Positions 3,089 to 28,150 of a stretch of DNA of 32,975 bases are shown piece by piece. The notes under the pieces were generated by a model, which was not told the origin of the DNA, ran no database searches, and worked only from the letters and a program-made list of their open reading frames with translations. This stretch comes from Spirochaetia bacterium (GTDB lineage Bacteria > Spirochaetota > Spirochaetia > PWKH01). The stretch lies in the NCBI GenBank assembly GCA_007116075.1, contig SKJE01000200.1:1-32975 (forward strand), read 5' to 3'. Positions within the stretch are counted from its first letter, which is position 1. Each line of letters begins with the position of its first letter. The position numbers were made by a program, and so were the translations under genes.

Positions 3089-5266
3089 TTACTGGGAGGG
3101 GAGTTCCAGATGCTTGAATGTTTGGGTTACCTTGAAGTGGTATCCCGGATACTCAAAGGTGGGCATCCTGGTCTCAAGGGAGCCGAGGGAGTACCCCCAT
3201 ATAGTGACATATTCACTGATCTGTTCCCCAAGCTCCTCCAGCTGATCCAGGTAGGTTCTGATGGACTTTGACTCAATGATGATTACCGCTTCCATATGGT
3301 CCACAATGGGGCTGTGGGGTCTGCTGTGGTCCTGCTCGAAGGAGAGGACCCGCCTGCCGTCCTCGGTTATTCCTATGGTTCGGAAGGTATTGCTTTTTCC
3401 TACACCCGGTAGATTGATCGTGTTCCGGTCTGTGGCAAGAAATGGGATAGAGGCTCCCTCACGGATGCTGTTGATCTGGCTGACCATTCCTTCTGCATAT
3501 TTTGAGAACTTCCTAATCTCGCTGTAGTATTTCGGATCCACCCGTCCGATGGATTTCTCCTCCACCTGTTCCTGGATGGATCGCGAATTGACCGAAAAGA
3601 GGGCAGAATTCTCCCGATAGCCCTTCACGGTAAAGGTATAGTAGGGCAGGACGCCGATGTCGTTAAGCACCTTCCGCAGCTTTGCCGTGTGGCCCCGGAG
3701 TGAACCGGGTACAATAAATACCTGCTGATTGGTGACCGTCCAGCCTGCAGCAATGAGTTTTCGTACCGCTTCGGCCGACTCCGGAGTTATTTCCATGGCG
3801 GTTGAGAAATGGGTCTGGATGACAAACTGCTTGATGCCGATCCTGGACGCCTTCTGCTTAAACTCATTCAGTATGGATGCACGCTTATCGGAAATTCGCT
3901 GGGGGAGGTAGATGGGAATCTTCGTTCCCAGCCGGACCCGGACAATCTCTGCATACTTCTCTCCGTTGGGACGGCTTTTATTTGCCCGCTGCTTTCGCTT
4001 TGCCATATCATAGACAGCATCAAGAATCTGCTTTAGAGACTGCACAGAGCTCATCATCGCATCCCCGCCGGTGATCAGGATGTCCTGGAGCTGGGGATCC
4101 TCTTCAAAGTAGCTCATGAGCTCCTCCAGCTGATTATCCCATTTTTTCTTCGGTTTCAGCTTATCCAGGTCAAAATTGAACCGTCCGTTCTGGAAATCAT
4201 ACATCCGCTGGCAATAGGCGCACAGCCCCCCGCAGGCCCGGCCCATGGTAGAGGGAATAAAAATAGCTACATTGGGATATCGGCGATGCACATTATTGGA
4301 GGGCAGCAGCCACCCCGCCGCATTGGGTTTGCCCGGTTCGATAAGGTCCTCCTTCTCCCATGCGCGGATCTGGCCGAATTCCTCCACCAGATCCCGGCTG
4401 TAGAGCACATACTGGCGAATAGCCGCATCGGCATACTTGTACTGCTCCGGGGGATCCGGAAGCAGCAGGGAGAGAAAATAGGGAGTGACGAATATGGGAA
4501 TATGCTTCTTCTCAGCCTCTTTCATGACCTGCACAGTCTGCTCATCAAGGGTGTTGCCCATCATGACCTGCAGTTCATCGGTGCTTTTTACAGCGTTCTG
4601 AAGATGAAAGAGGTCATCATCCCACCACTGTTCAAGCTGCTGTAGCTGCTCTTGCTCCGACATGCCCGGTGAAAACAGGAATTTGCCCCGTTTTTTGGTT
4701 CTGCTTTTCTCTGCGATTCTTTCCTGCAGCAGCCGGATGATACGTTCCCTGTTCTGTTTGCGCAGATGGACAATGATGGGGTCCAGCCCGGATGGGTGCC
4801 GGTCCATCCATACGGTTATCGAATCTTTCCTAGGTATTTTACGCTTTTCAATGCCGCTGAGCTGCCTGAAGAGGTGCAGCATATCCTCATAGAAGTCTGG
4901 AGTTCCCCCATAGATCCCTTCCTTCAGCGCCCTGCGCAGGATGTCAAAGGGGCGGGAGATGATCTCTGCCCCCTGAAGATTGGGGTCCTCAAAGGATGAT
5001 CCCTCATGGTTCAGATAATCAAGGACCCGGATAATAGCCAGGTCCTTCCATGAAAGCTTGTAGAAGGGGACCTCTCCCCGTTCCTCACCGCTGAAATACG
5101 CGAAGGCCTGGGGATGTTCCCGAAGCATCTGGAGGATTTTTTTCCGGTACTGAGTTGTAAATGTCTTGGTGCTTCGGGAACGAATCATCATGGATGCAAG
5201 TTCCGGCTGTTCTTCCCTGATCTGTGTTACTAGCTGTATGCAACTTTCTGAAATATGTTCATTCAT
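3089..5266 (-). CDS. KamA-like radical SAM protein, unusually long
   Basis: A 725-residue cytoplasmic protein, well above the usual 350-470 for lysine 2,3-aminomutase (KamA) relatives. Residues 345-352 contain the radical SAM cluster motif C-x3-C-x2-C (CGGLCAYC), which binds a 4Fe-4S cluster and SAM. ILITGGDA near residue 397 matches the KamA GGD motif. VLPYYTFTVKG and a later LPGVGKS (Lys622) resemble the KamA PYY segment and the PGGxGK loop that carries the PLP lysine. The first 230 or so residues have no motif I recognise and are the extra part. True aminomutases move an amino group between alpha and beta carbons; EpmB-type relatives modify EF-P. The substrate here is unknown. The start is the ATG at 5264-5266, six bases after GAAGGG; an in-frame ATG at 5272 would abut that site. 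The lipoprotein gene follows downstream. Confidence 0.8.
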   Translation of the reverse strand: MNEHISESCIQLVTQIREEQPELASMMIRSRSTKTFTTQYRKKILQMLREHPQAFAYFSGEERGEVPFYKLSWKDLAIIRVLDYLNHEGSSFEDPNLQGAEIISRPFDILRRALKEGIYGGTPDFYEDMLHLFRQLSGIEKRKIPRKDSITVWMDRHPSGLDPIIVHLRKQNRERIIRLLQERIAEKSRTKKRGKFLFSPGMSEQEQLQQLEQWWDDDLFHLQNAVKSTDELQVMMGNTLDEQTVQVMKEAEKKHIPIFVTPYFLSLLLPDPPEQYKYADAAIRQYVLYSRDLVEEFGQIRAWEKEDLIEPGKPNAAGWLLPSNNVHRRYPNVAIFIPSTMGRACGGLCAYCQRMYDFQNGRFNFDLDKLKPKKKWDNQLEELMSYFEEDPQLQDILITGGDAMMSSVQSLKQILDAVYDMAKRKQRANKSRPNGEKYAEIVRVRLGTKIPIYLPQRISDKRASILNEFKQKASRIGIKQFVIQTHFSTAMEITPESAEAVRKLIAAGWTVTNQQVFIVPGSLRGHTAKLRKVLNDIGVLPYYTFTVKGYRENSALFSVNSRSIQEQVEEKSIGRVDPKYYSEIRKFSKYAEGMVSQINSIREGASIPFLATDRNTINLPGVGKSNTFRTIGITEDGRRVLSFEQDHSRPHSPIVDHMEAVIIIESKSIRTYLDQLEELGEQISEYVTIWGYSLGSLETRMPTFEYPGYHFKVTQTFKHLELPSQ

Positions 5267-5353
5267 GATCATCCCTTCTCATTTGCGTCATTGTATTGTA
5301 TATATATGAATCAAGTATAGATAAGCGTAACGATGGTAATCACTTGTATGTCT

Positions 5354-9153: not shown

Positions 9154-9829
9154 TTGGGTACTCTATGAGGACAACCATTTTATAGCGGTGAACAAGAGCT
9201 CCTCCGAGATCGTCCAGGCCGATGAGACCGGCGATGAGACGCTTGCCGAGCGGGTTAAGACGTATCTGAAAGAGACCTACCGGAAACCGGGTAATGTGTT
9301 TCTCGGGATACCCCATCGCCTGGACCGGCCGAGCAGCGGGGTGGTGCTCTTTGCCAAGACCGATAAGGCCCTATCCCGGATCAGCACCATGTTCAAGGAG
9401 CGGCAGGTTCGAAAGATCTACTGGGTGGTACTTGATACTCCGCCGCCTGATCCTGAGGGAGTGCTTGTCCATCACCTGCTGCGGGACAGCAGTAAAAACA
9501 AGTCCTTTGCATACCCGAAACCCAGGGGAGGTACTAAGGAGGCCCGGCTTTCCTATCGGTTGATTGCAGCTACCAGCAATTACTATCTTGTGGAGGTGGA
9601 GTTGATCACCGGCCGGCACCACCAGATACGGGCCCAGTTCGCCAAGGTGGGATGCCATATTAAGGGGGACCTGAAATACGGCGCCTCCCGTTCCAACCGG
9701 GGAGGCGGTATTCACCTGCATGCCCGGAGCCTGCAGTTTGTCCATCCTGTGACCAAAGAGGAAACGGTCATCACCGCACCCCCGCCGGAAGAGAACCTCT
9801 GGAATGTGTTCAGGTCAATGGGGGATTAA
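9146..9829 (+). CDS. RluA-family 23S rRNA/tRNA pseudouridine synthase
   Basis: A 227-residue enzyme that isomerises uridine to pseudouridine in RNA. The catalytic loop IPHRLDRPSSG is at residues 55-65, with the nucleophilic Asp at 60. ELITGRHHQIRAQFA (about residues 152-166) is the second hallmark motif of the RluA family. There is no N-terminal S4 domain, which makes it a compact RluA/TruC-type member. The exact target nucleotide cannot be read from the sequence. The ATG lies inside the end of parC (8-base overlap), consistent with translational coupling to the topoisomerase IV genes. Its last 4 bases overlap the convergent MFS-HEAT gene. The family call is secure; the specific paralogue name is not. 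Confidence 0.9.
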   Translation: MLDWVLYEDNHFIAVNKSSSEIVQADETGDETLAERVKTYLKETYRKPGNVFLGIPHRLDRPSSGVVLFAKTDKALSRISTMFKERQVRKIYWVVLDTPPPDPEGVLVHHLLRDSSKNKSFAYPKPRGGTKEARLSYRLIAATSNYYLVEVELITGRHHQIRAQFAKVGCHIKGDLKYGASRSNRGGGIHLHARSLQFVHPVTKEETVITAPPPEENLWNVFRSMGD

Positions 9830-12180
9830 ATGGCTGGATGCTTCTTTGGCGGCTGGGGAGGTTTGTTTTTCCAGGCACGCCCATAGTATTTCAGGAAATA
9901 GAAACAGAGCAGTAACCCAACCTGTTCTATCGGGTCCTGTTCCCGGTGCTTCTCCAGCCATTGGAACAGGATAAACCCTGCATAGAGGTGGGGTTCCTGC
10001 TTAAACAGGGTTGAGCCCAACTGGGTGATGGTCGTGGTTTTCACATCCTCCCCCTGGAGCTCCACAAACCGGTAGAGCAGGTTGGAGACGATACTGTAGA
10101 GCTGGTCGAAGCACCCGTCGTAATCCCACTGCTCGTAACTTTCAATTGCTGAAGGAAGGATATCCTTTACTATGTGCTGTATGAATCCCTTATCGGATTT
10201 TTGGAGAATGCGTAAGTTTCTGTAGACCCCCCGGAAGAGTTTCTCCGACTCCTCTTCCCGATGCTCCTCAGTTCCGGTAAGCAGTGTATAGAATTCTCCC
10301 GGCCGTCCGAGCAGGTTTGCAATGGAAATGGCGAGCTGCTTACGCATAATAGGATTATTGGTCCGCTCCCGTATCTTGAGGATATCCTCCACAGCATTAA
10401 GATATCCCTTCTGGCTGATGGCCTGGGCACTGGTTACCTTGACCCTGAGGGTGCTCTCTCCGGTAATCAGCTTGATGAGCGCTTCGGATCCCCGGACGTC
10501 ATCAATATTTCCCAAGCCCCGGGCACAGGCTTCTGAGAAGTCCTCATCGGATGAGCTGAGTCCATCAATGAGGTACGGGACTGCCTGGGCCGATCCGATG
10601 GTGCCCAGTGCCCGGGCGCAGGCGGTCCTGATCAGGGAATCCTCATTGCTCAGATGGGCAATGAGAATCTCGATGGCCTGCTCGCCTCCGATTCTGCCGA
10701 GTGCCTTCACCGCCTCCTCTCTGATCTCCTCATCAGGATCATCCAGCCGCAGGGCTATCTCATTGAGTGCAATGCCGCTGGAGGAGCCGCTCATTCGTCT
10801 CAGTGCCCTGCCTACCCGCCGGGGAGATTCCGCCTTTGCAATATAGGGCATATTGTAGTAGGCCTTGACGATAGTTGGTGTAGTGATGGTGGGGAATACC
10901 CGGGAGAAGCGTTTTTCCTTCTTGATCTGCAGGTTGTCCATGAGCAGAAATGAACAGATAAGCAGTCCCAGGCTGGTGAGCACCACAAAACGGATATCTT
11001 GAGTGCTGTCCAGAAGCAGTCCTCCAAGGATAGGGCCGATGGCAGAAATGGTACCGAGCATCGCCCAGAACCAGGCGATGTAAATCGTGCGGTCCCGGCG
11101 GGGCAGCAGAACGAACATGATCTGGTTCAGGCCTTCATAAAGGGCCGGGGCAAAAAATCCCCAGACCAGCGCTGTTATGATCAGAACTGCCGGGTAGTTT
11201 GAGGGAGTGATAACAATATAACCCAGGAAGCTGAGGGCTGAGAGCATACCGAACATGGTAACCGGCTTTCTTCCGAACCGGTCCATCACGGTTCCCCAGA
11301 AGGGGACCAGCAGCACCCAGGAGAGCTGGGATATGGCATACATGATACCAAGCCAGATATTGGGAACTCCAATACGGGCGGGATCGGTGATATACGCCGG
11401 GAAAAAGGGGTTTGCCACGTTTATTGCCAGGATAGTTGTCCCTGCAATGAGGCAGAAGGATCGGTAGGTTTTTGATCTCAAAGGCGCAAAGAAGGTTCCC
11501 AGCTTCAAAGGTGTCCGCTCAGCCTGGTTGAGAGCTGATGCCGGTTCAGGGATGGGCAGATGAAGGGCGTGTTCCAATAGTCCGAGGATCCCAGCGGCTA
11601 GGTAGATGATACCGTAGACAATAAACACCTGGGAGGAGAAGATGTCCAGTGAAAACGTAGCGGCGAAGAAAAAGAATATGTTCATTCCCTGGGCAACGGC
11701 GCTTCTTTTACCGAAATAGCTTCCCATAGCCTGGGACGGCACCAGTTCATGGATCCAGGTCCACCATCCTGAACTTGCGGTGCTTCCGATGAAGAAGGTT
11801 GCCAGGGTAGCGCCCACGACGACTGCGAGGGCTGTGCTCCGGTCTCCCCCCATAGCTACATAGAAGGAACTGAAGGCAACCACGAAGGCCATGGAGCGGT
11901 GGATGAGACCTATGAGAAGCCAGAATGGTTTGATGGATTTACGTTTGTTATAGAAGAATATGGAGCCCAGATGTGCAAGACTTACGATGTTGAATGCTGC
12001 GATAAACAGCCCAAGCTGGGATGCGGTTGCTCCAAGGTAGTTTTTTACATAGACGGTAAGAATCTGCTGGGGAGATGCGAGGAGAAACCAGACAGCACCA
12101 AATCCGCCCCCAAACAGGCTGTAGCCCATTGAGCGGGTGATACGCCGTTTGGAAATCCGCTTCCCCTTGGTATCAAGCAC
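9826..12180 (-). CDS. MFS transporter fused to a HEAT-repeat domain
   Basis: A 784-residue protein with an unusual architecture. Residues 17-415 form an MFS carrier with about 12 membrane segments; MDRFGRKP at 299-306 is the central loop motif A. Residues about 465-600 contain at least three HEAT/PBS-lyase-like helical repeats, for example LDDPDEEIREEAVKALGRIG, then LSNEDSLIRTACARALGTIG, then a weaker third. Residues 600-784 are a further helical region with no motif I recognise, ending in a Lys/Pro-rich tail. HEAT repeats bind proteins, so the carrier is probably scaffolded or controlled by a cytosolic partner (inference). The GTG start at 12180 is supported by AGAGG six bases upstream. It is divergent from corA. 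Substrate unknown. Confidence 0.85.
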   Translation of the reverse strand: MLDTKGKRISKRRITRSMGYSLFGGGFGAVWFLLASPQQILTVYVKNYLGATASQLGLFIAAFNIVSLAHLGSIFFYNKRKSIKPFWLLIGLIHRSMAFVVAFSSFYVAMGGDRSTALAVVVGATLATFFIGSTASSGWWTWIHELVPSQAMGSYFGKRSAVAQGMNIFFFFAATFSLDIFSSQVFIVYGIIYLAAGILGLLEHALHLPIPEPASALNQAERTPLKLGTFFAPLRSKTYRSFCLIAGTTILAINVANPFFPAYITDPARIGVPNIWLGIMYAISQLSWVLLVPFWGTVMDRFGRKPVTMFGMLSALSFLGYIVITPSNYPAVLIITALVWGFFAPALYEGLNQIMFVLLPRRDRTIYIAWFWAMLGTISAIGPILGGLLLDSTQDIRFVVLTSLGLLICSFLLMDNLQIKKEKRFSRVFPTITTPTIVKAYYNMPYIAKAESPRRVGRALRRMSGSSSGIALNEIALRLDDPDEEIREEAVKALGRIGGEQAIEILIAHLSNEDSLIRTACARALGTIGSAQAVPYLIDGLSSSDEDFSEACARGLGNIDDVRGSEALIKLITGESTLRVKVTSAQAISQKGYLNAVEDILKIRERTNNPIMRKQLAISIANLLGRPGEFYTLLTGTEEHREEESEKLFRGVYRNLRILQKSDKGFIQHIVKDILPSAIESYEQWDYDGCFDQLYSIVSNLLYRFVELQGEDVKTTTITQLGSTLFKQEPHLYAGFILFQWLEKHREQDPIEQVGLLLCFYFLKYYGRAWKNKPPQPPKKHPAI

Positions 12181-13322: not shown

Positions 13323-16265
13323 TCAGAGACAGATCAAGCCCTTCCCGGTTTTCCCGTCGATGCGGACGTCCAGGGCCTTGGGAAGCCGGACATGGCGGAG
13401 GTAGGCTGTCTCATGCTCTGCAGACAGTTCATCAAGCCGGTGATGGGTAAAGCTTCCCTGCTTCCTGGAAGGATTGATGGTCATGTAGGCGTTTCTCAGG
13501 GAAGTAAGATTCTGGAAAAAGTGTGTTCCCTGACTCGGCTCAACTTGAAAATGCTCCAATCCCATCTCAATGATGACCCGTGCATGTGAAATCTGTGACC
13601 AGGTGGTGGGAATTCCAAGCCAGGGATCACTGGAACCAAGCCTTCCGGCAACCACTAGGATGTATCCCTCACGTCGCTGGAGAAACTCCTCATTAAGTTC
13701 GCTGATTGTCCGTGCCATCTCTTCTGTATGAGCTGGATCAAAGGCTTCAGGCTTGATGTACACCACGTCCTGAAGGTCGTCAAATTTTCCGTTGCCCATA
13801 GCTTTCGTCGAGTAGATCAGGGCATCCTCGATGAGCTCCCGGGATATTTGGACATCCGAGGCCTCAAAACCTGCAACGATCGGTCTGATCTGCAGTACGC
13901 TAAATTCCGGCTGCATTGGCTGTTTATCCAGATTGCCGGCGAATTCTATTTCAATGGGCACATTGAGTACCTGTTCACCGAGTTTCAGCAGATCATGGAT
14001 GATCTGCGCAATGGGCAGCAGGTTGTACTTAAGCAGACCTGCAAAGGTGATAATCTTCCTGCCGCTGCCGGCGACGGAATCCCTGACCATAAAATTCTGC
14101 TCGTCATAGGTGGAGGCTATCAGTTTCATGGACCCGTCAGGTACAGCTTCCTGGATAGAGAGGCGGTTCACATTCTCCGTATTGCCCTCCAGGGGAGAGA
14201 AGGGTGAATTCATGTCCAGGGCATAGAAATGCTGCTGGGTGTTTTTCAGGGTGCTCCCCATCTCCGAGAGCTGCATGACCTTCTTCGGGTATTTCGGGGA
14301 GAAGCGCAGGGAGGTGCCCAGATCATCAACTACAGTCTTTCCGAACCCGAAGGCAATATAGGCGATGCCGTCCTCAGGCCGCTCATGCTCAATGGGATAG
14401 TAATTGAGCGACCGTGCAACCCCGGAGAAATTCGGGTAGCAGCGGTCCTTGTAGATGCTCCCGGTGATGCGCTGGATAACCACAGCCATCTTCTCTTCTT
14501 CAATCATGTGGTTGGTCGCCTTCAGGTAGTCCTTGCTGCTCTGGAAATAGGTGGAGGCATAGACGCACTTGACTGCATTCGACAGATCCTGCAGACGCTG
14601 TTCAAAATCGGACTGGTTGTTAGGTATCATGCAGGTCCCATATATTCCTGCAAAGGGCTGGTAGTGGGAGTCCTCAAGAAGGCTCGAGGAACGTACCGCC
14701 AGCGGAGTCGTCAGGACATTGAGTATTGCCTGGAGATTCTCCTTCAGATCCCTGGGGAGGGAGGCCTTCAGGAACCGTTCAAGAATTTCCTGGTCCGTGC
14801 GATCCTCCATGGCCTCGGCAATAAGCTTGTTTTCCTCCATGAAGACATCAAAAAGTTCCGTTGATATCACGATGGTGCGGGGGATGTTGATGTACATCTG
14901 GGGATAATCACTGCTCAGGCCGCTCTCCTTAAGCTGGAGATCCAGGAAGGCAAGTCCCCTGCCCTTGCCCCCGAGGGAGCCGGATCCGATTCTGCTGAAG
15001 AAGGTGAACTCGTCAAAGCTGTCCTTATTGAATCTGGCAATGATACCCCGCCCCTGCTGCAGGCGGTAGCTCCTGATAATCTGGACAAGATCCTGCCTCA
15101 TTTCCTCTTCAGAGGGGTAGTCGTCGATTGTCTTGGGCCTGATGAGCTGGGCGAGAGGAAAAAGCGCCCGTGCCTTGAGCCATTTGGAAAAATCATTGTG
15201 TCTCACGTGGTGGAGAAATGAGTCCGTGGGCAGCTCCGGGATAATGTACTGCAGATCCCTGAGGTCACACGCCCGGCCGACCTCCCTAGCTGTTTTTGGG
15301 TCCCTGAAGACAAAGTCCCCAAAACCATAGTTGATCCTGATATAGTCCCGCAGTTCAAGCAGAAGGGTCTTGGAGTGTTTGTGGATAAATGCCGCCCCCT
15401 GCTGGCGGGCAACATCAATGAGCTCTGCCTGGGTGGACTGCAGTAAAATAGGCAAGTCCTGATCTCTGCTTCTTATATGTTCGCAGAGGCGTATTCCGGC
15501 CTGCTGGTCTACCGTTCCCTCTCTTCGGTAGGAGATATCTGATATTACCCCGAGGACGCTCTCCTGATACCGTTCATAGAGTCCGACCGCTTCCTCATAA
15601 TTACGTGCCAGCAGGATCTTCGGTCTGCTTCGCATGCGCTGCGCCTGGGACCACTCGTTGAGACCCTCGGTCATCAATTCTCTGGCCTGCTGGATGAGGG
15701 TGGTGTAAATCATGGGAAGGTAGGTGGAGTAGTAGGCGATGGAGTCCTCCACCAGGATAATAGTCTGGACATCCCCGATGGCGATATCATGATCCACATT
15801 CATGGAGTCCTCTATCAGCTTCACAATAGCCAGGAGAATATTTGGGTTTCCCTGCCAGGCAAAGATGAAGTTCAGCAGGGCCGACCCCTCCTGGCGGAGC
15901 CGCCGGAGGGTCTGGTAGGTTGCAGCCGGGGTAAGGACGATGACCGGTTTCTGGGGGTACTGCTGCTTGATGGTCTTGGCCAGTTCCATCACGTCAACAT
16001 TTCCCACATTCACCATGGTAATTACCAGGTCGAAGTTCTGCTGTTCCATCAGTCTCAGTGCCTTCTGGGCTGAAGGGGCATGGGTGATCTTCGGTGGAGA
16101 GGTCAGTCCCAGGGCAATATAGTCCTGGAAGAGCAGCTCTTCGATACGTCCATCCTCTTCAAGCATAAACCGGTCATATTTACTGCAGATCAGTAAAATA
16201 TCCCTGATCCGGTTGGCCATGAGGTTGTGAAAAGGTGTCTCCGGAAAACTATGAAACTCACTCAT
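13323..16265 (-). CDS. Receiver-like domains fused to a PEP synthase-type ATP-grasp domain
   Basis: A 980-residue protein. Residues about 20-155 look like a response-regulator receiver that has lost its phosphoacceptor: the segment FDLVITMVNV has Met84 where Asp is expected, and the acidic pair is missing. Residues about 166-312 are a second receiver with all key residues: Glu173-Asp174, Asp243 (VISDISY), Thr278 and Lys296. From about residue 420 comes the PPDK/PEP synthase nucleotide-binding domain, with GSGSLGGKGRGLAFL, AVRSSSLLEDS, FAGIYGT and the closing VLQIRPI near residue 800. The last 170 residues are unassigned. The phosphohistidine swivel domain (TSHxAI-type motif) and the PEP/pyruvate barrel are absent, so it cannot run the full PEP synthase cycle. 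It may be a phosphorylation-controlled kinase or ATP sensor (inference). Ribosome binding at the ATG is weak. Confidence 0.75.
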   Translation of the reverse strand: MSEFHSFPETPFHNLMANRIRDILLICSKYDRFMLEEDGRIEELLFQDYIALGLTSPPKITHAPSAQKALRLMEQQNFDLVITMVNVGNVDVMELAKTIKQQYPQKPVIVLTPAATYQTLRRLRQEGSALLNFIFAWQGNPNILLAIVKLIEDSMNVDHDIAIGDVQTIILVEDSIAYYSTYLPMIYTTLIQQARELMTEGLNEWSQAQRMRSRPKILLARNYEEAVGLYERYQESVLGVISDISYRREGTVDQQAGIRLCEHIRSRDQDLPILLQSTQAELIDVARQQGAAFIHKHSKTLLLELRDYIRINYGFGDFVFRDPKTAREVGRACDLRDLQYIIPELPTDSFLHHVRHNDFSKWLKARALFPLAQLIRPKTIDDYPSEEEMRQDLVQIIRSYRLQQGRGIIARFNKDSFDEFTFFSRIGSGSLGGKGRGLAFLDLQLKESGLSSDYPQMYINIPRTIVISTELFDVFMEENKLIAEAMEDRTDQEILERFLKASLPRDLKENLQAILNVLTTPLAVRSSSLLEDSHYQPFAGIYGTCMIPNNQSDFEQRLQDLSNAVKCVYASTYFQSSKDYLKATNHMIEEEKMAVVIQRITGSIYKDRCYPNFSGVARSLNYYPIEHERPEDGIAYIAFGFGKTVVDDLGTSLRFSPKYPKKVMQLSEMGSTLKNTQQHFYALDMNSPFSPLEGNTENVNRLSIQEAVPDGSMKLIASTYDEQNFMVRDSVAGSGRKIITFAGLLKYNLLPIAQIIHDLLKLGEQVLNVPIEIEFAGNLDKQPMQPEFSVLQIRPIVAGFEASDVQISRELIEDALIYSTKAMGNGKFDDLQDVVYIKPEAFDPAHTEEMARTISELNEEFLQRREGYILVVAGRLGSSDPWLGIPTTWSQISHARVIIEMGLEHFQVEPSQGTHFFQNLTSLRNAYMTINPSRKQGSFTHHRLDELSAEHETAYLRHVRLPKALDVRIDGKTGKGLICL

Positions 16266-16436
16266 GTGTTACTCTATCATGGATTTACCTGCAGTTCCAC
16301 TGTCCTGAAAAAGTTTCCGGACTGATGTCTCTGTAGGTTTTATCGTTAAAAACATGTCATTAGATCAAAATAACCTTATATAATTTATAAATATATAAGT
16401 ATAGAGTAAAAATGTTGCCTCATACATAAATGAAAG

Positions 16437-16465
16437 TTGACATAGCAGATGAGTCGCGTTATGCT
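16437..16465 (+). promoter_or_regulatory. Sigma70-type promoter for gdhA
   Basis: A perfect TTGACA (16437-16442) is followed after exactly 17 bases by TATGCT (16460-16465). Just upstream, bases 16370-16420 are very AT-rich and could act as an UP element. Transcription would start near 16472, giving a 20-odd-base leader that carries the ribosome binding site. A TATAAT at 16379-16384 without a matching -35 is a weaker alternative. The whole gap from 16266 to 16494 holds no gene. Confidence 0.7.
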
Positions 16466-16494
16466 GAAGGTAAGCATCAAATCGGAGGAAATGT

Positions 16495-17832
16495 ATGTAC
16501 GATGTAGAAACCTTTATTGCGGAGGTGGAACGTAAGAATCCAGCCCAGCCGGAGTTTATTCAGGCTGTCAAGGAAGTGACGGAGACCATCATCGATGTAG
16601 TGAATGATAATCCAGCTTATCTGCATGGAAAAATTCTTGATCGTCTGGTTGAACCGGATCGGATCATAACGTTCAAGGTTGAATGGGAAAATGATAACGG
16701 TGAGGTCCAGGTGAACCGCGGTTATCGTGTGCAGTATAATAATGTCCTTGGTCCCTACAAGGGCGGTATTCGCTTCCATCCCAGTGTTACCCTGGGAACT
16801 TTGAAGTTTCTCGCCTTTGAGCAGACCTTCAAGAATTCTCTTACAACGCTCCCCATGGGCGGTGGTAAGGGAGGATCAGACTTCAATCCCAAGGGAAAGT
16901 CGGAGAATGAGATGAGGAGATTCTGCCGGTCATTTATGACCGAACTGCAGAAGTATATCGGTCCTGAGACAGATGTTCCCGCAGGAGACATCGGTGTAGG
17001 CGCCCGGGAAGTGGGCTTTATGTACGGTATGTACAAGCGGCTCAAGGATGATCATACCGGGGTGATCACCGGAAAGGGAAGGAACTGGGGAGGTTCGGTC
17101 ATCCGTCCTGAAGCAACCGGCTTTGGAGCCATGTACTTTGCCGAGGATATGGTAAAAGCCCAGGGGGATACCTTCGAGGGCAAGACAATTGCCGTATCAG
17201 GTTTCGGTAATGTCGCATGGGGAGCGGTCATGAAGGCAACTGAACTGGGAGCCAAGGTAGTGACCATCTCCGGGCCTGACGGGTATATTTACGATCCGGA
17301 TGGAGTGAATACAGAAGAGAAGTGGCGGTATATGGTCGCCCTGCGAGCATCAAACAACGATGTGGTGGAGCCCTATGCGAAGCAGTTCGGTGCTAAGTTT
17401 GTTCCGAATCGAAAACCCTGGGAGGTCCCTGTGGACATGGCCTTTCCCTGTGCCATCCAGAATGAGCTCAACGGTGAAGATGCCAAGACCCTTGTGAAAA
17501 ACGGAACCAAGTATGTGGTTGAGACCTCCAATATGGGCTGCACCGCCGATGCCTATACCGTTTTTAAGAACGCCCGGGTACTCTTTGCACCCGGTAAGGC
17601 GGCCAACGCCGGCGGCGTTGCTGTTTCGGGACTGGAGATGACCCAGAACTCCATGAAGCTCTCCTGGACCGAGGAAGAGGTTGATGAGAAACTCCAGAGG
17701 ATCATGAAGGAAATACATGCATCCTGCGTTCGGGAGGGCAGGGAGCCTGACGGGTTCGTGAATTATGCCCGGGGCGCAAATATCGCCGGATTCCGAAAAG
17801 TTGCCGACGCCATGCTTGACATGGGCTACTAA
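16495..17832 (+). CDS. gdhA: Hexameric glutamate dehydrogenase
   Basis: A 445-residue cytosolic enzyme that interconverts 2-oxoglutarate plus ammonia and glutamate using NAD(P)H. The active-site residues fall at the same numbers as in the well-studied Clostridium symbiosum enzyme: Lys89 (GPYKGG), Lys113 (TFKNSL), the catalytic Lys125 (PMGGGKGG) and Asp165 (VPAGDIGVG). A Rossmann domain follows, with VSGFGNVAWGA around residue 236. The length and these motifs place it in the small hexameric (GDH50) class. Coenzyme preference is not decided here; family resemblance suggests NADP. The ATG has GGAGG six bases upstream. The gene has its own promoter and a hairpin after its stop, so it appears monocistronic. 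It links ammonia handling to the fermentative genes nearby. Confidence 0.95.
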   Translation: MYDVETFIAEVERKNPAQPEFIQAVKEVTETIIDVVNDNPAYLHGKILDRLVEPDRIITFKVEWENDNGEVQVNRGYRVQYNNVLGPYKGGIRFHPSVTLGTLKFLAFEQTFKNSLTTLPMGGGKGGSDFNPKGKSENEMRRFCRSFMTELQKYIGPETDVPAGDIGVGAREVGFMYGMYKRLKDDHTGVITGKGRNWGGSVIRPEATGFGAMYFAEDMVKAQGDTFEGKTIAVSGFGNVAWGAVMKATELGAKVVTISGPDGYIYDPDGVNTEEKWRYMVALRASNNDVVEPYAKQFGAKFVPNRKPWEVPVDMAFPCAIQNELNGEDAKTLVKNGTKYVVETSNMGCTADAYTVFKNARVLFAPGKAANAGGVAVSGLEMTQNSMKLSWTEEEVDEKLQRIMKEIHASCVREGREPDGFVNYARGANIAGFRKVADAMLDMGY

Positions 17833-25011: not shown

Positions 25012-26064
25012 TTAGGATCCGAAGGAATAGGCCCGGGGTACTTCAAGCACCTCAATGGGGCCGACGGAGGAGCCGAGGGATCCCGATGCAGTGCTCAGGG
25101 CCTTCAGAATCTTAGCTGAACTGCCTTCAGCGGCTATGCAGGTGATCCGCTCCCAGGCGCCAAACTCCCCGATATCGGTTCGCTGCATACGGGTGATGGT
25201 GGCTCCGCCCGCCCCGGCATTCATGGCGGCTTTGATCAGGGTATTTGAGAGTCCCTCCATACATGAAATGGTAATCTCCCACTGCCTGCTCAGCAGCGGA
25301 AACTTCAGCAATTTCGGTTCTATGTAGCGCTTTCGCCAGGAGGTATCCCCCTTCAGGTCATCAACAGCAGCAATAATCTGTTCAATACTCGCCGCATATT
25401 CCTGGGGACCGATGATCATCCGTGAATCAACCACGCCCAGTTCGACCGGTGTCTGGTACAAGAATCCGCCCCCGGGACGGTCAAGATGCGCCTGCTCGAT
25501 GATCAGCTGCATGATTCCCCCAGCATCATGGGTCGGAACCACGCAGTGGACCAGCTCCTTTTCCGGCGGAATGGTGATGCGAAGCAGTCCGAGACGGTCC
25601 CTGATGCCGGTTCCGATTCCTCTTGTGACTACCGGAACTCCGATACCAAGGGCGAGGATCACCTCAGCGGTTTCTTCACCTGCTCCAGAATCGGAAAGGA
25701 TGCAGGTAATTTGGGAAAGTTTGGGGGATTTCATCTTCACCGGCTGGGGGGATTCCGGTGTGTAGATCTGAACCTGCTGCTGGATAATGCTCCCCCTTCC
25801 CGGCAGCTTAAGCTGGGCCTCCCTGGCCAGCAGATGGATAAGCTCTTCAGTATGATCGGATGAACAGAGAATGTGAAGTCGTTCTCCTGGTGCATCATCC
25901 AGGGTGCTGCGGACTCCCGGCAGACCAAAGGGCCTGGGACGGCGTACCTGACGTACATTTCTACAGGACTCAAGCAGTATCTGCTCAACCGGTGATCCGT
26001 CAAGGATTTTGATCAGGCGGGAGCTGATGCTGTGATGGACGGTACAGGTGACTCTACTGCTCAT
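25012..26064 (-). CDS. Protein of repeated PII-like signalling units
   Basis: A 350-residue soluble protein that looks like several PII (GlnB-like) ferredoxin-fold units in one chain. Unit one spans about 1-105 and ends with REAQLKLPGRGSIIQQQVQI; unit two spans about 116-212 and ends with HLDRPGGGFLYQTPVELG. The matching PGxG-strand ends show they are copies. A third unit (about 262-345) has the AGAGGATITRMQ segment seen in PII-type folds before its T-loop region, followed by a C-terminal strand. PII proteins sense ATP, ADP and often 2-oxoglutarate and switch partner proteins. The Lys/Arg-binding residues of classic GlnB are not evident, so the ligand is open. AGGAGG six bases before the ATG supports the start, which lies inside the upstream DUF1538 gene (11-base overlap). 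It probably regulates that transporter. Confidence 0.7.
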   Translation of the reverse strand: MSSRVTCTVHHSISSRLIKILDGSPVEQILLESCRNVRQVRRPRPFGLPGVRSTLDDAPGERLHILCSSDHTEELIHLLAREAQLKLPGRGSIIQQQVQIYTPESPQPVKMKSPKLSQITCILSDSGAGEETAEVILALGIGVPVVTRGIGTGIRDRLGLLRITIPPEKELVHCVVPTHDAGGIMQLIIEQAHLDRPGGGFLYQTPVELGVVDSRMIIGPQEYAASIEQIIAAVDDLKGDTSWRKRYIEPKLLKFPLLSRQWEITISCMEGLSNTLIKAAMNAGAGGATITRMQRTDIGEFGAWERITCIAAEGSSAKILKALSTASGSLGSSVGPIEVLEVPRAYSFGS

Positions 26065-28114
26065 CCGGGGCCTCCTGCTGAATCTCCTTCATGGTGCGCT
26101 TTTCCTTCAGCCTGATGAGAAAACCGTACACCTGTACCGAGAGAATGGGGCAAACCGATGCCATGGCAAGGATCCCGAATCCCTCTATACTCTGCATTGC
26201 TCCGCTCATTCCCAGACCCAGGGCCATCACCAGCGGTACGGTTACAGGGCCGGTGGTGACTCCTCCACTGTCCCAGGAAACACCGACAAAATCCCGGTCT
26301 GTCCAGACGGTCAGAGGAATAAGCAGCAGGTACAGGGGAACAATCAACAGGGTTATAGGTAGTTCATAGAGTATTCGCAGTACTCCAAGCACAAGTCCAA
26401 CACCGACACCTACGGATACCGCCCTGATAACCCCCCTGCGCCGGACGGTGCCGATAGTCATCTCCTCAACCTTTCTGCCCAGGGCGTTAAGTGCGGGCTC
26501 AGCAAGGGTCGAACCGTATCCAAGGCCGAAGGCGAATATCAGCACCACAGCAATGCCTAGGGCGGTGATTGCCGGAGCGGCTGGAAGTATTGTTCTGGTA
26601 TACGTATATACTGCAGTCTCCGGATCATGCCGGTCCGGTGCGTAGAGAACTCTTCTGGTCTCTCCGTTCTCCCTGAGATAAAAAAACTGCTGCCGTTCAC
26701 CTTCCAGGGAGATATCCTCATAGAGCAGCTGCTTGTCGAAACCGGTGATCGGTATGGACTGTTCGTGATCCTCTACCTGGTACATCCTGGGCAGCTGTCT
26801 GCCGAGGGTATCCCCCAGCGGGGCCAGACCGATGCGGATGCCTGTTGTGAGCAGTGCCATCCCTACAAGGGTAAGGGCGATACCGAGGAGAAATTCATCG
26901 GTGTACCTCGGCCGCTGTTTGAGCAGTACCAGCAGCACGAAGAGCAGCAGCCCGGTAAGGGGAATCACCGCCCTCAGGGCTGATACCGACTCCTCCTGCA
27001 GAAGTTCCGGGACTGGAATCTGGTAGGGATCTTTCCCTGAAGGAGATGATATCCCTTCAGCCTCCATGTATTTCCGCTCCTGTTCTGTTGCATGCTCAGC
27101 AAGCCATTGACTGAGACTCATCCCGGCGAGCAGGGAGTGGTTTTCCGCTAAGGATGAGAGTGCTTGCCGATAGGCCTGTTCATCTTCATAAAAAGCCCGT
27201 CTTCCATCCTCGCTGCCCCGGATATAAGCGTGCTGTTCCAGGGTTTGTTCATCGGGAAAGAACACCAGCGCCTGGTCCCGGTGCTCTGCTGAAAAAAAAC
27301 TGGTCTCATCCATGGGATCCGGCAGGGTCAGGGATAACCCGAAGGAGAGCAGCATCACGCAGAGCACTGGAAAGAGTGAGGCCAGAGCGATGCTTCCGAA
27401 TCCTGCAGATGTACCGTGCTGCTTCCCCGAAGCCCGGGCAACTCCAATACTCAGGGCAAGTACCAGAGGGACCGTGACCGGGCCGGTGGTCACTGCACCG
27501 GTATCCCAGGCGAGGGCAATAGTGCTGCTGAGCTTATCTGAAGTGGTGAACAGCAGGGTAACCCCCAGGACAATCGGCAGGGTTATAAGGATGAAGGGCT
27601 TGAGGCTGAATCCGTACTGGTAGCGGATGAGACTTGCGGCAACCGCCAGGCCAACGCCGACCCCGACAGATCCAATGAGCATACCGGGACTGCGTTCCAG
27701 CAGGTGGAAGAGCACAGGAGCTTCCCACACAGCGGTTTCAGAGCCTGCAGTTCGAAGGATACTGATTGCCGGTTCCGCCAGGGTTGAGATGAATCCGATG
27801 AGCAGACCGAAGATGATAACCTGAAAGAGCCTGCTTTTTCCCGGCAGCAGCAGCCCGACTGTTTCACCGAGAGGCATGAGGCCGAGGGTGAGTCCCTCCA
27901 TGAAAAGGGTGAGCCCGAGGATGACCGCGATAATTCCTAGTGTGATGCCCAGGGACATCCCCCCGGGAGAACCGAGAATGACCATCTGGAATGCCAGGAG
28001 GTAGATGATAATGAATGCAACAGATCGAACCTGCTCCCGAAATTTCCCGGTGACATACCGGGTCACCAGGGTGAGCATATATTGGGGGGGCAGGGTAATC
28101 CGTTGCTGCTTCAT
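26054..28114 (-). CDS. Doubled DUF1538 membrane transporter (UmpA/UmpB-like)
   Basis: A 686-residue inner-membrane protein made of two DUF1538 halves. Each half has the same three marks: G-L-x-P-L-G-x-T (MPLGETVG and APLGDTLG), STLAEPA, and a signature WD-[ST]-G-x-VTTGPVTVPL starting at Trp203 and Trp614. Two hydrophilic inserts (about residues 265-375 and 440-505) probably lie outside the membrane. In some bacteria the halves are separate proteins reported as a two-part Na+(K+)/H+ antiporter, UmpA-UmpB; here they are fused. The start is the ATG at 28112-28114 because the promoter -10 box lies at 28151-28156, so the GTG at 28150 cannot be used; GAGGAG is 11 bases upstream. The PII-like gene follows with an 11-base overlap. 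The transported ion is inferred from the family. Confidence 0.82.
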   Translation of the reverse strand: MKQQRITLPPQYMLTLVTRYVTGKFREQVRSVAFIIIYLLAFQMVILGSPGGMSLGITLGIIAVILGLTLFMEGLTLGLMPLGETVGLLLPGKSRLFQVIIFGLLIGFISTLAEPAISILRTAGSETAVWEAPVLFHLLERSPGMLIGSVGVGVGLAVAASLIRYQYGFSLKPFILITLPIVLGVTLLFTTSDKLSSTIALAWDTGAVTTGPVTVPLVLALSIGVARASGKQHGTSAGFGSIALASLFPVLCVMLLSFGLSLTLPDPMDETSFFSAEHRDQALVFFPDEQTLEQHAYIRGSEDGRRAFYEDEQAYRQALSSLAENHSLLAGMSLSQWLAEHATEQERKYMEAEGISSPSGKDPYQIPVPELLQEESVSALRAVIPLTGLLLFVLLVLLKQRPRYTDEFLLGIALTLVGMALLTTGIRIGLAPLGDTLGRQLPRMYQVEDHEQSIPITGFDKQLLYEDISLEGERQQFFYLRENGETRRVLYAPDRHDPETAVYTYTRTILPAAPAITALGIAVVLIFAFGLGYGSTLAEPALNALGRKVEEMTIGTVRRRGVIRAVSVGVGVGLVLGVLRILYELPITLLIVPLYLLLIPLTVWTDRDFVGVSWDSGGVTTGPVTVPLVMALGLGMSGAMQSIEGFGILAMASVCPILSVQVYGFLIRLKEKRTMKEIQQEAPDEQ

Positions 28115-28150
28115 AGATTCCGCGACTCCTCTTATTGGGTGTGTCCCCAC

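Follow-up and report, generated by a model that had tools for sequence, protein, structure and literature searches.

What kind of protein joins two receiver domains to the nucleotide-binding part of PEP synthase, and why should it be encoded divergently from a glutamate dehydrogenase (GDH)? The question is raised by a 980-residue protein encoded at 13323..16265 (minus strand) of a 32,975-nucleotide stretch of Spirochaetia DNA, analysed over its full length and referred to here as the window. Its ORF, Pfam matches and AlphaFold2 model give the order receiver 1, receiver 2, linker, ATP-grasp and a predicted, divergent swivel. Pfam reports Response_reg at residues 59-127 and PPDK_N (PF01326) at residues 430-805 (E 1.1e-39), and the full-length model (mean pLDDT 76.4, pTM 0.55, built on 11 sequences) contains two receiver folds, a helical linker, the ATP-grasp and a further domain that runs up to the C-terminus. 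The protein is a member of a real, widespread and diverse family, with pairwise core identities from 18% to 80%; the residue counts given below come from an alignment of 89 members, with the receivers scored on the 59 members of receiver type.

Both receiver folds of the full-length model match receiver structures (VIA Z about 13-15). Receiver 1 (residues ~20-163; 15777..16208, minus strand), delimited by such matches, is degenerate: position 84 (Met84, codon 16014-16016) is Met in 51, Thr in 5 and Gly in 3 members, and the phospho-acceptor Asp is found there in 0 of 59, in keeping with a first-pass annotation that had noted Met84 in place of Asp. Receiver 2 (residues ~165-318; 15312..15773, minus strand; VIA Z up to 15.4) is intact, with Asp243 (15537-15539) and Ser277 each in 59/59 members, Lys296 (15378-15380) in 58/59 (Arg in the remaining one) and an acidic pair at residues 173-174, so that Asp, acidic pair and Lys are all present, and the earlier description of it by Asp243 and Lys296 holds. 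The helical linker that follows (residues ~319-410; 15036..15311, minus strand) resembles DUF5752 below threshold: nine of 11 members match the profile at E<=0.1 (best 1.1e-05), and the window protein scores 16.2 bits, below the curated cut-off of 23. The genome has 28 HATPase_c matches, counting a topoisomerase subunit encoded in the window, and no histidine kinase is among the recurrent neighbour genes listed for the family loci.

The PEP-synthase/PPDK-type ATP-grasp (residues ~411-801; 13863..15035, minus strand; PF01326, VIA Z 25) carries the motifs VRSSS at 524 and LQIRP at 791. Lys434 and Arg525 are invariant (89/89 each), as are Glu774 and Gln792 (88/88 each), while position 794 is Arg in 79 members and Lys in 9; the protein thus has the catalytic Lys, Arg and Gln-x-Arg of PPDK_N. 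The annotation had read a PEP synthase-type nucleotide domain from VRSSS and LQIRPI, and the Pfam match and retained catalytic residues confirm it; since the receiver and ATP-grasp residues are kept across the family, its account of both was right and not due to chance. It was also correct that a PEP-binding barrel is missing: the 980-residue protein has no Pfam match to the PEP/pyruvate barrel (PF02896), and the chain, which ends at the predicted swivel, has no room for one.

The annotation had further stated that the protein lacks the rest of PEP synthase, including any phosphohistidine swivel in the last 170 residues. This stands for the barrel; for the swivel, structure prediction, set beforehand as the refuting test, probably goes against the claim, as in two models the final ~180 residues can be aligned to the swivel domain of PEP synthase, PPDK and rifampin phosphotransferase. 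An AlphaFold2 model of residues 400-980 (mean pLDDT 78.2, pTM 0.77, 10 sequences) aligns nearly from its start to its end with residues 4-465 of PEP synthase 2ols (364 residues, 4.3 A, Z 25.1), the full-length model aligns with the same structure over 360 residues (4.0 A, Z 25.0), and the 400-980 model aligns with the PPDK structures 1dik, 1kbl, 1ggo and 1jde over 328-353 residues (Z 16.6-17.6). With both models the latter alignments extend to PPDK residues 505-511, and with several PPDK entries in which the swivel is positioned otherwise the ATP-grasp aligns alone, over about 225-235 residues. In these enzymes the stretch between ATP-grasp and barrel is the phosphohistidine swivel.

The canonical swivel motif is absent from the protein, as the annotation had observed, and a new motif, S-x-G-x-H-F-F, takes its place around His915 (13521-13523). 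Gly913, His915 and Phe916 occur in all 86 members that reach the tail (in the other three this part is truncated or masked). The succession of strands and helices, on which the placement was based, sets the G-T-H-F-F of the tail at the T-S-H-A-A place of the swivel, and the end of the tail (VRIDGKTGKGLI) resembles the last strands of a swivel (DG..G); residues 910-919, around His915, are of low confidence in both models (mean pLDDT 45-49). Sequence profiles are silent here. A Pfam scan at E<=10 found no PEP-utilizers/swivel domain (PF00391) in any of ten members, and hhalign of 38 and of 81 family tails against 28 swivels, or subsets of them, gave no match, with E values of 0.05-0.16 for the 81 tails versus 6e-18 for a control of PPDK against enzyme I (EI) swivels. 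A profile search of the PDB found matches for the ATP-grasp; a spidroin hit was below significance and is dismissed as chance. His894, in a TSHAA-like context (SQISHARV), was considered as phospho-carrier and dropped, being His in just 11/86 members. Despite the silent profiles, we consider that the tail (residues ~802-980; 13326..13862, minus strand) is very probably a phosphohistidine swivel, as the model alignments indicate, and that His915 is, more likely than not, its phospho-carrier.

Comparison with characterized systems places the protein close to PEP synthase (pyruvate, water dikinase; 2ols), with the same ATP-grasp catalytic residues and a swivel that, as predicted, follows directly (360-364 residues, Z 25), while it differs in having N-terminal receivers, no PEP/pyruvate barrel and S-x-G-x-H-F-F in place of the GG-x-TSHAA of the PEP synthase swivel. 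The ATP-binding part also has rifampin phosphotransferase (5hv1, 5hv3) among its best structural matches, and the alignment with 5hv3 reaches C-terminal residues 862-866 of that structure; unlike that enzyme, the 980-residue protein has no rifampin-binding domain and its tail comes directly after the ATP-grasp, and whereas rifampin phosphotransferase is tied to resistance, the present family is linked to GDH. HpeI (9goj, covering residues ~413-801) is a PEP synthase-type ATP-binding protein with no barrel in its chain; unlike it, matching the ATP-grasp part alone, the window protein has a predicted swivel in the same chain. Phenylphosphate synthase likewise uses a PEP synthase-type ATP-binding protein with the barrel not in the same chain. 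PorX and other receiver-enzyme proteins also set a receiver fold ahead of an enzymatic output, although the output domain is another one and the window protein has two receivers, the first degenerate. The nearest counterpart is WP_041525632.1 of Parabacteroides distasonis, annotated 'PEP/pyruvate-binding domain-containing protein', which has the same domains at 44% identity over 976 aligned residues, is encoded divergently from gdhA, and showed no difference from the window protein.

The conserved unit of the family is the ATP-grasp plus tail. This unit stands alone in three loci (L014, L150 and L156), and elsewhere follows two receivers or, in L095, an N-terminus of ~300 residues with no Pfam or PDB sequence match; a KaiC-like N-terminus in relatives of ~870 residues, suggested by a motif, was abandoned after Pfam and PDB sequence searches came back empty. 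Stand-alone and longer forms lie next to each other, with GDH upstream, in L150, L153, L154 and L156-L158. A variant of ~1060 residues bears a C-terminal nucleotidyltransferase domain (PF01909; L150:4792-7995, L156:4828-7995) and, in both loci, adjoins the stand-alone ATP-grasp/tail gene and GDH; it suggests nucleotidylation as a second output in the control of nitrogen. Locus L086 holds two tandem family genes with no GDH nearby, one of them on a very long branch (3.65) and possibly a diverging paralogue.

In the window, GDH (PF00208, PF02812) is encoded on the plus strand at 16495..17832, and the 229 bases separating it from the family gene (16266..16494) would serve both as a common promoter region. 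This divergent neighbour, which the annotation had passed over, is the chief pointer to the target. The same divergent arrangement recurs in Parabacteroides, where the GDH is annotated gdhA, and in Phocaeicola. Other genes of the window include a 698-aa protein matching both UmpA and UmpB of the Na,Li,K/H antiporter, an apparent fusion (26054-28150, minus strand), a protein of 784 aa in which HEAT repeats follow an MFS transporter part (9826-12180, minus strand) and a 727-aa KamA-family radical SAM protein that scores under the cut-offs of all aminomutase models listed (3089-5272, minus strand).

The association with GDH extends well beyond this locus. Eighty-three loci were taken and the family gene was found in 82, which were reduced to 78 at 85% identity; forty family places were fetched with wide flanks, picked by size class and genus and independently of their neighbours. 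L087, whose family gene the ORF filter missed, was left out, and tblastn places both family gene and GDH there. By tblastn, the fetched stretch contains a GDH in 67 of the 78 loci left after this reduction, at a distance of at most 1 kb in 60 of them and at most 3 kb in 62; clustering, which missed some of these GDHs, gives 61/78. The link is found in every size class, a locus being assigned to that of its longest family member: GDH is present in 39 of 48 loci of the ~960-1050 aa class (34 within 1 kb), 14 of 16 at 820-930 aa (13), all 6 at 1053-1075 aa (6), all 7 at 1280-1530 aa (6) and the single stand-alone locus of ~570 aa (1). The second commonest neighbour cluster, a topoisomerase subunit, occurs in 18/78 loci. 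By a rough estimate, chance would link the genes in about one locus in a hundred, given one or two GDH genes per 2-5 Mb genome.

It is important to note that this is not a single inherited synteny block: family gene and GDH occur in four arrangements (divergent, which accounts for 34/61 clustered loci, co-directional in both orders, and convergent), and the arrangement has changed at least nine times among the linked rows of the family tree. The link spans Spirochaetota, Bacteroidota and one KSB1 record. Twelve unlinked rows are scattered on the tree (12 changes for 12 rows); 11/78 loci, the Prevotella locus L079 among them, have no GDH nearby, and in the single-contig genome G281 the GDH is 57 kb from the family gene. 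The count of family-GDH distances, with the window, G380 and G488 left out, stands at no fewer than 47/58. A comparison of 297 genomes from the class found GDH in 156/163 that have the family versus 64/134 that do not (Fisher p 2e-22, a value that ignores the relatedness of the genomes), and the seven family-positive genomes in which no GDH was detected are drafts of 74-94% completeness. The genetic link of the family to GDH is strong. Such linkage is evidence of a shared process and not of a substrate, and we think it highly probable that the function of the family bears on GDH.

We hypothesize that the protein is a receiver-gated ATP-to-histidine phosphotransferase controlling GDH. A histidine kinase would phosphorylate Asp243 of receiver 2, receiver 1 being a structural or dimerising relic, and this would move the swivel with respect to the ATP-grasp, which would then charge His915 of the C-terminal domain by a half reaction like that of PEP synthase. 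The charged swivel, having no PEP/pyruvate barrel to visit, would meet an acceptor protein. The GDH of the adjoining gene is the likeliest one because of the gene linkage, and there the phosphate would toggle GDH activity with nitrogen or energy state. That GDH is the acceptor, like the sign of the effect on it, is something we infer. As a whole this reading is, in our judgement, evenly balanced between right and wrong; covalent modification of GDH itself falls slightly short of that balance, and the most specific form, in which the receiver-gated ATP-grasp/swivel writes phosphate on GDH, perhaps at active-site His95, with other sensors wired in by other lineages, is tentative and rather doubtful. 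The first-pass view of a signalling protein in place of a metabolic enzyme is favoured by the invariant receiver 2 and ATP-grasp, the lack of a barrel and the swapping of N-terminal modules, and is probably wrong in the part that relied on a missing swivel.

The genetic link would fit equally well if the protein bound GDH without passing it phosphate, the ATP-grasp and tail sensing energy charge and the state of the receiver setting binding, inhibition or activation of GDH. The lack of sequence support for the swivel speaks for such a regulator, which we nevertheless think unlikely, as an ATP-grasp catalytic set invariant in 88-89 members, together with the tail His, exceeds what binding alone would need. 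Alternatively, the substrate may be a small molecule from the metabolism around GDH, such as a compound related to glutamate or 2-oxoglutarate. ATP-grasp and swivel are a known pairing in small-molecule phosphotransferases such as rifampin phosphotransferase and phenylphosphate synthase, a precedent that favours this idea, as does the presence of rifampin phosphotransferase and HpeI among the nearest structures of the core; it is improbable, however, since the chain has no third domain to bind a substrate, either between ATP-grasp and tail or behind them, and freely exchanged N-terminal modules fit a regulator.

A further alternative keeps the phosphotransfer and changes the partner to another protein of nitrogen control (PII, a transcription factor or a PTS-like carrier) that has only its regulon in common with GDH. 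The divergent pairs could indeed share a promoter, and the genome does have PII and GOGAT; against this, no other nitrogen gene is prominent among the recurrent neighbours listed and the GDH linkage outlasts the rearrangements counted above, and we hold it to be a little more improbable still. Least probable of all, and only slightly credible, is the version of the first-pass annotation, in which there is no swivel and phosphate passes directly from ATP to protein or by way of a separate swivel protein. The absent canonical motif and the empty Pfam scan for PEP-utilizers favour it, but the structure alignments carry on until the swivel domain ends, and the only canonical swivels of the genome belong to PPDK and PTS enzyme I, which leaves none over for a separate protein.

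Returning to the phosphotransferase hypothesis, we considered which residue of GDH might mark a client. His95, which adjoins the PYKGG motif with the substrate-binding lysine, is present in 62/62 linked GDHs (every GDH >380 aa in the loci, second copies included) versus 10/20 GDHs of genomes without the family, the other ten carrying N, A or S. The carriers of His95 without the family include several GDHs closely related to that of the window, and E. coli, which is not known to have the regulator, also has this His in its GDH. A test on the tree was not significant (of five pairs, one or two pointed the same way and none the opposite), and His95 was set aside as a discriminating residue; at the sequence level its association with the family is only a hint. 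Since the genome encodes a second GDH as well as PII and GOGAT, the window GDH need not be the sole carrier of nitrogen assimilation.

GDH is a main entry of ammonia into glutamate, and its post-translational regulation in gut Bacteroidota is, to our knowledge, unsettled. Reversible inactivation of GDH occurs in Bacteroides, and in a 1996 study of Bacteroides thetaiotaomicron GDH a 3-kb segment downstream of gdhA was reportedly needed for activity. The title of that study, listed among the references of PMC4539542, speaks of a trans-acting gene that affects GDH activity in this species. The Parabacteroides family gene has a GDH gene on either side; it lies upstream of the one and, at a distance of three intervening genes, downstream of the other. 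BT1971 of B. thetaiotaomicron is a catalase (PMC12596196, PMC4595636), and the word 'phosphoenolpyruvate' was not found in a paper on Prevotella nitrogen metabolism (PMC5552732). No published description of the family was found in an open-licence literature collection.

The family is thus a concrete candidate regulator of GDH in Bacteroidota and Spirochaetota. Its link to GDH makes its role testable and suggests an unrecognised switch on bacterial ammonia uptake. If our proposal is true, a metabolic dikinase scaffold would have been repurposed as a signalling phosphotransferase, and one that writes on GDH would account for the reversible inactivation of the enzyme in Bacteroides.
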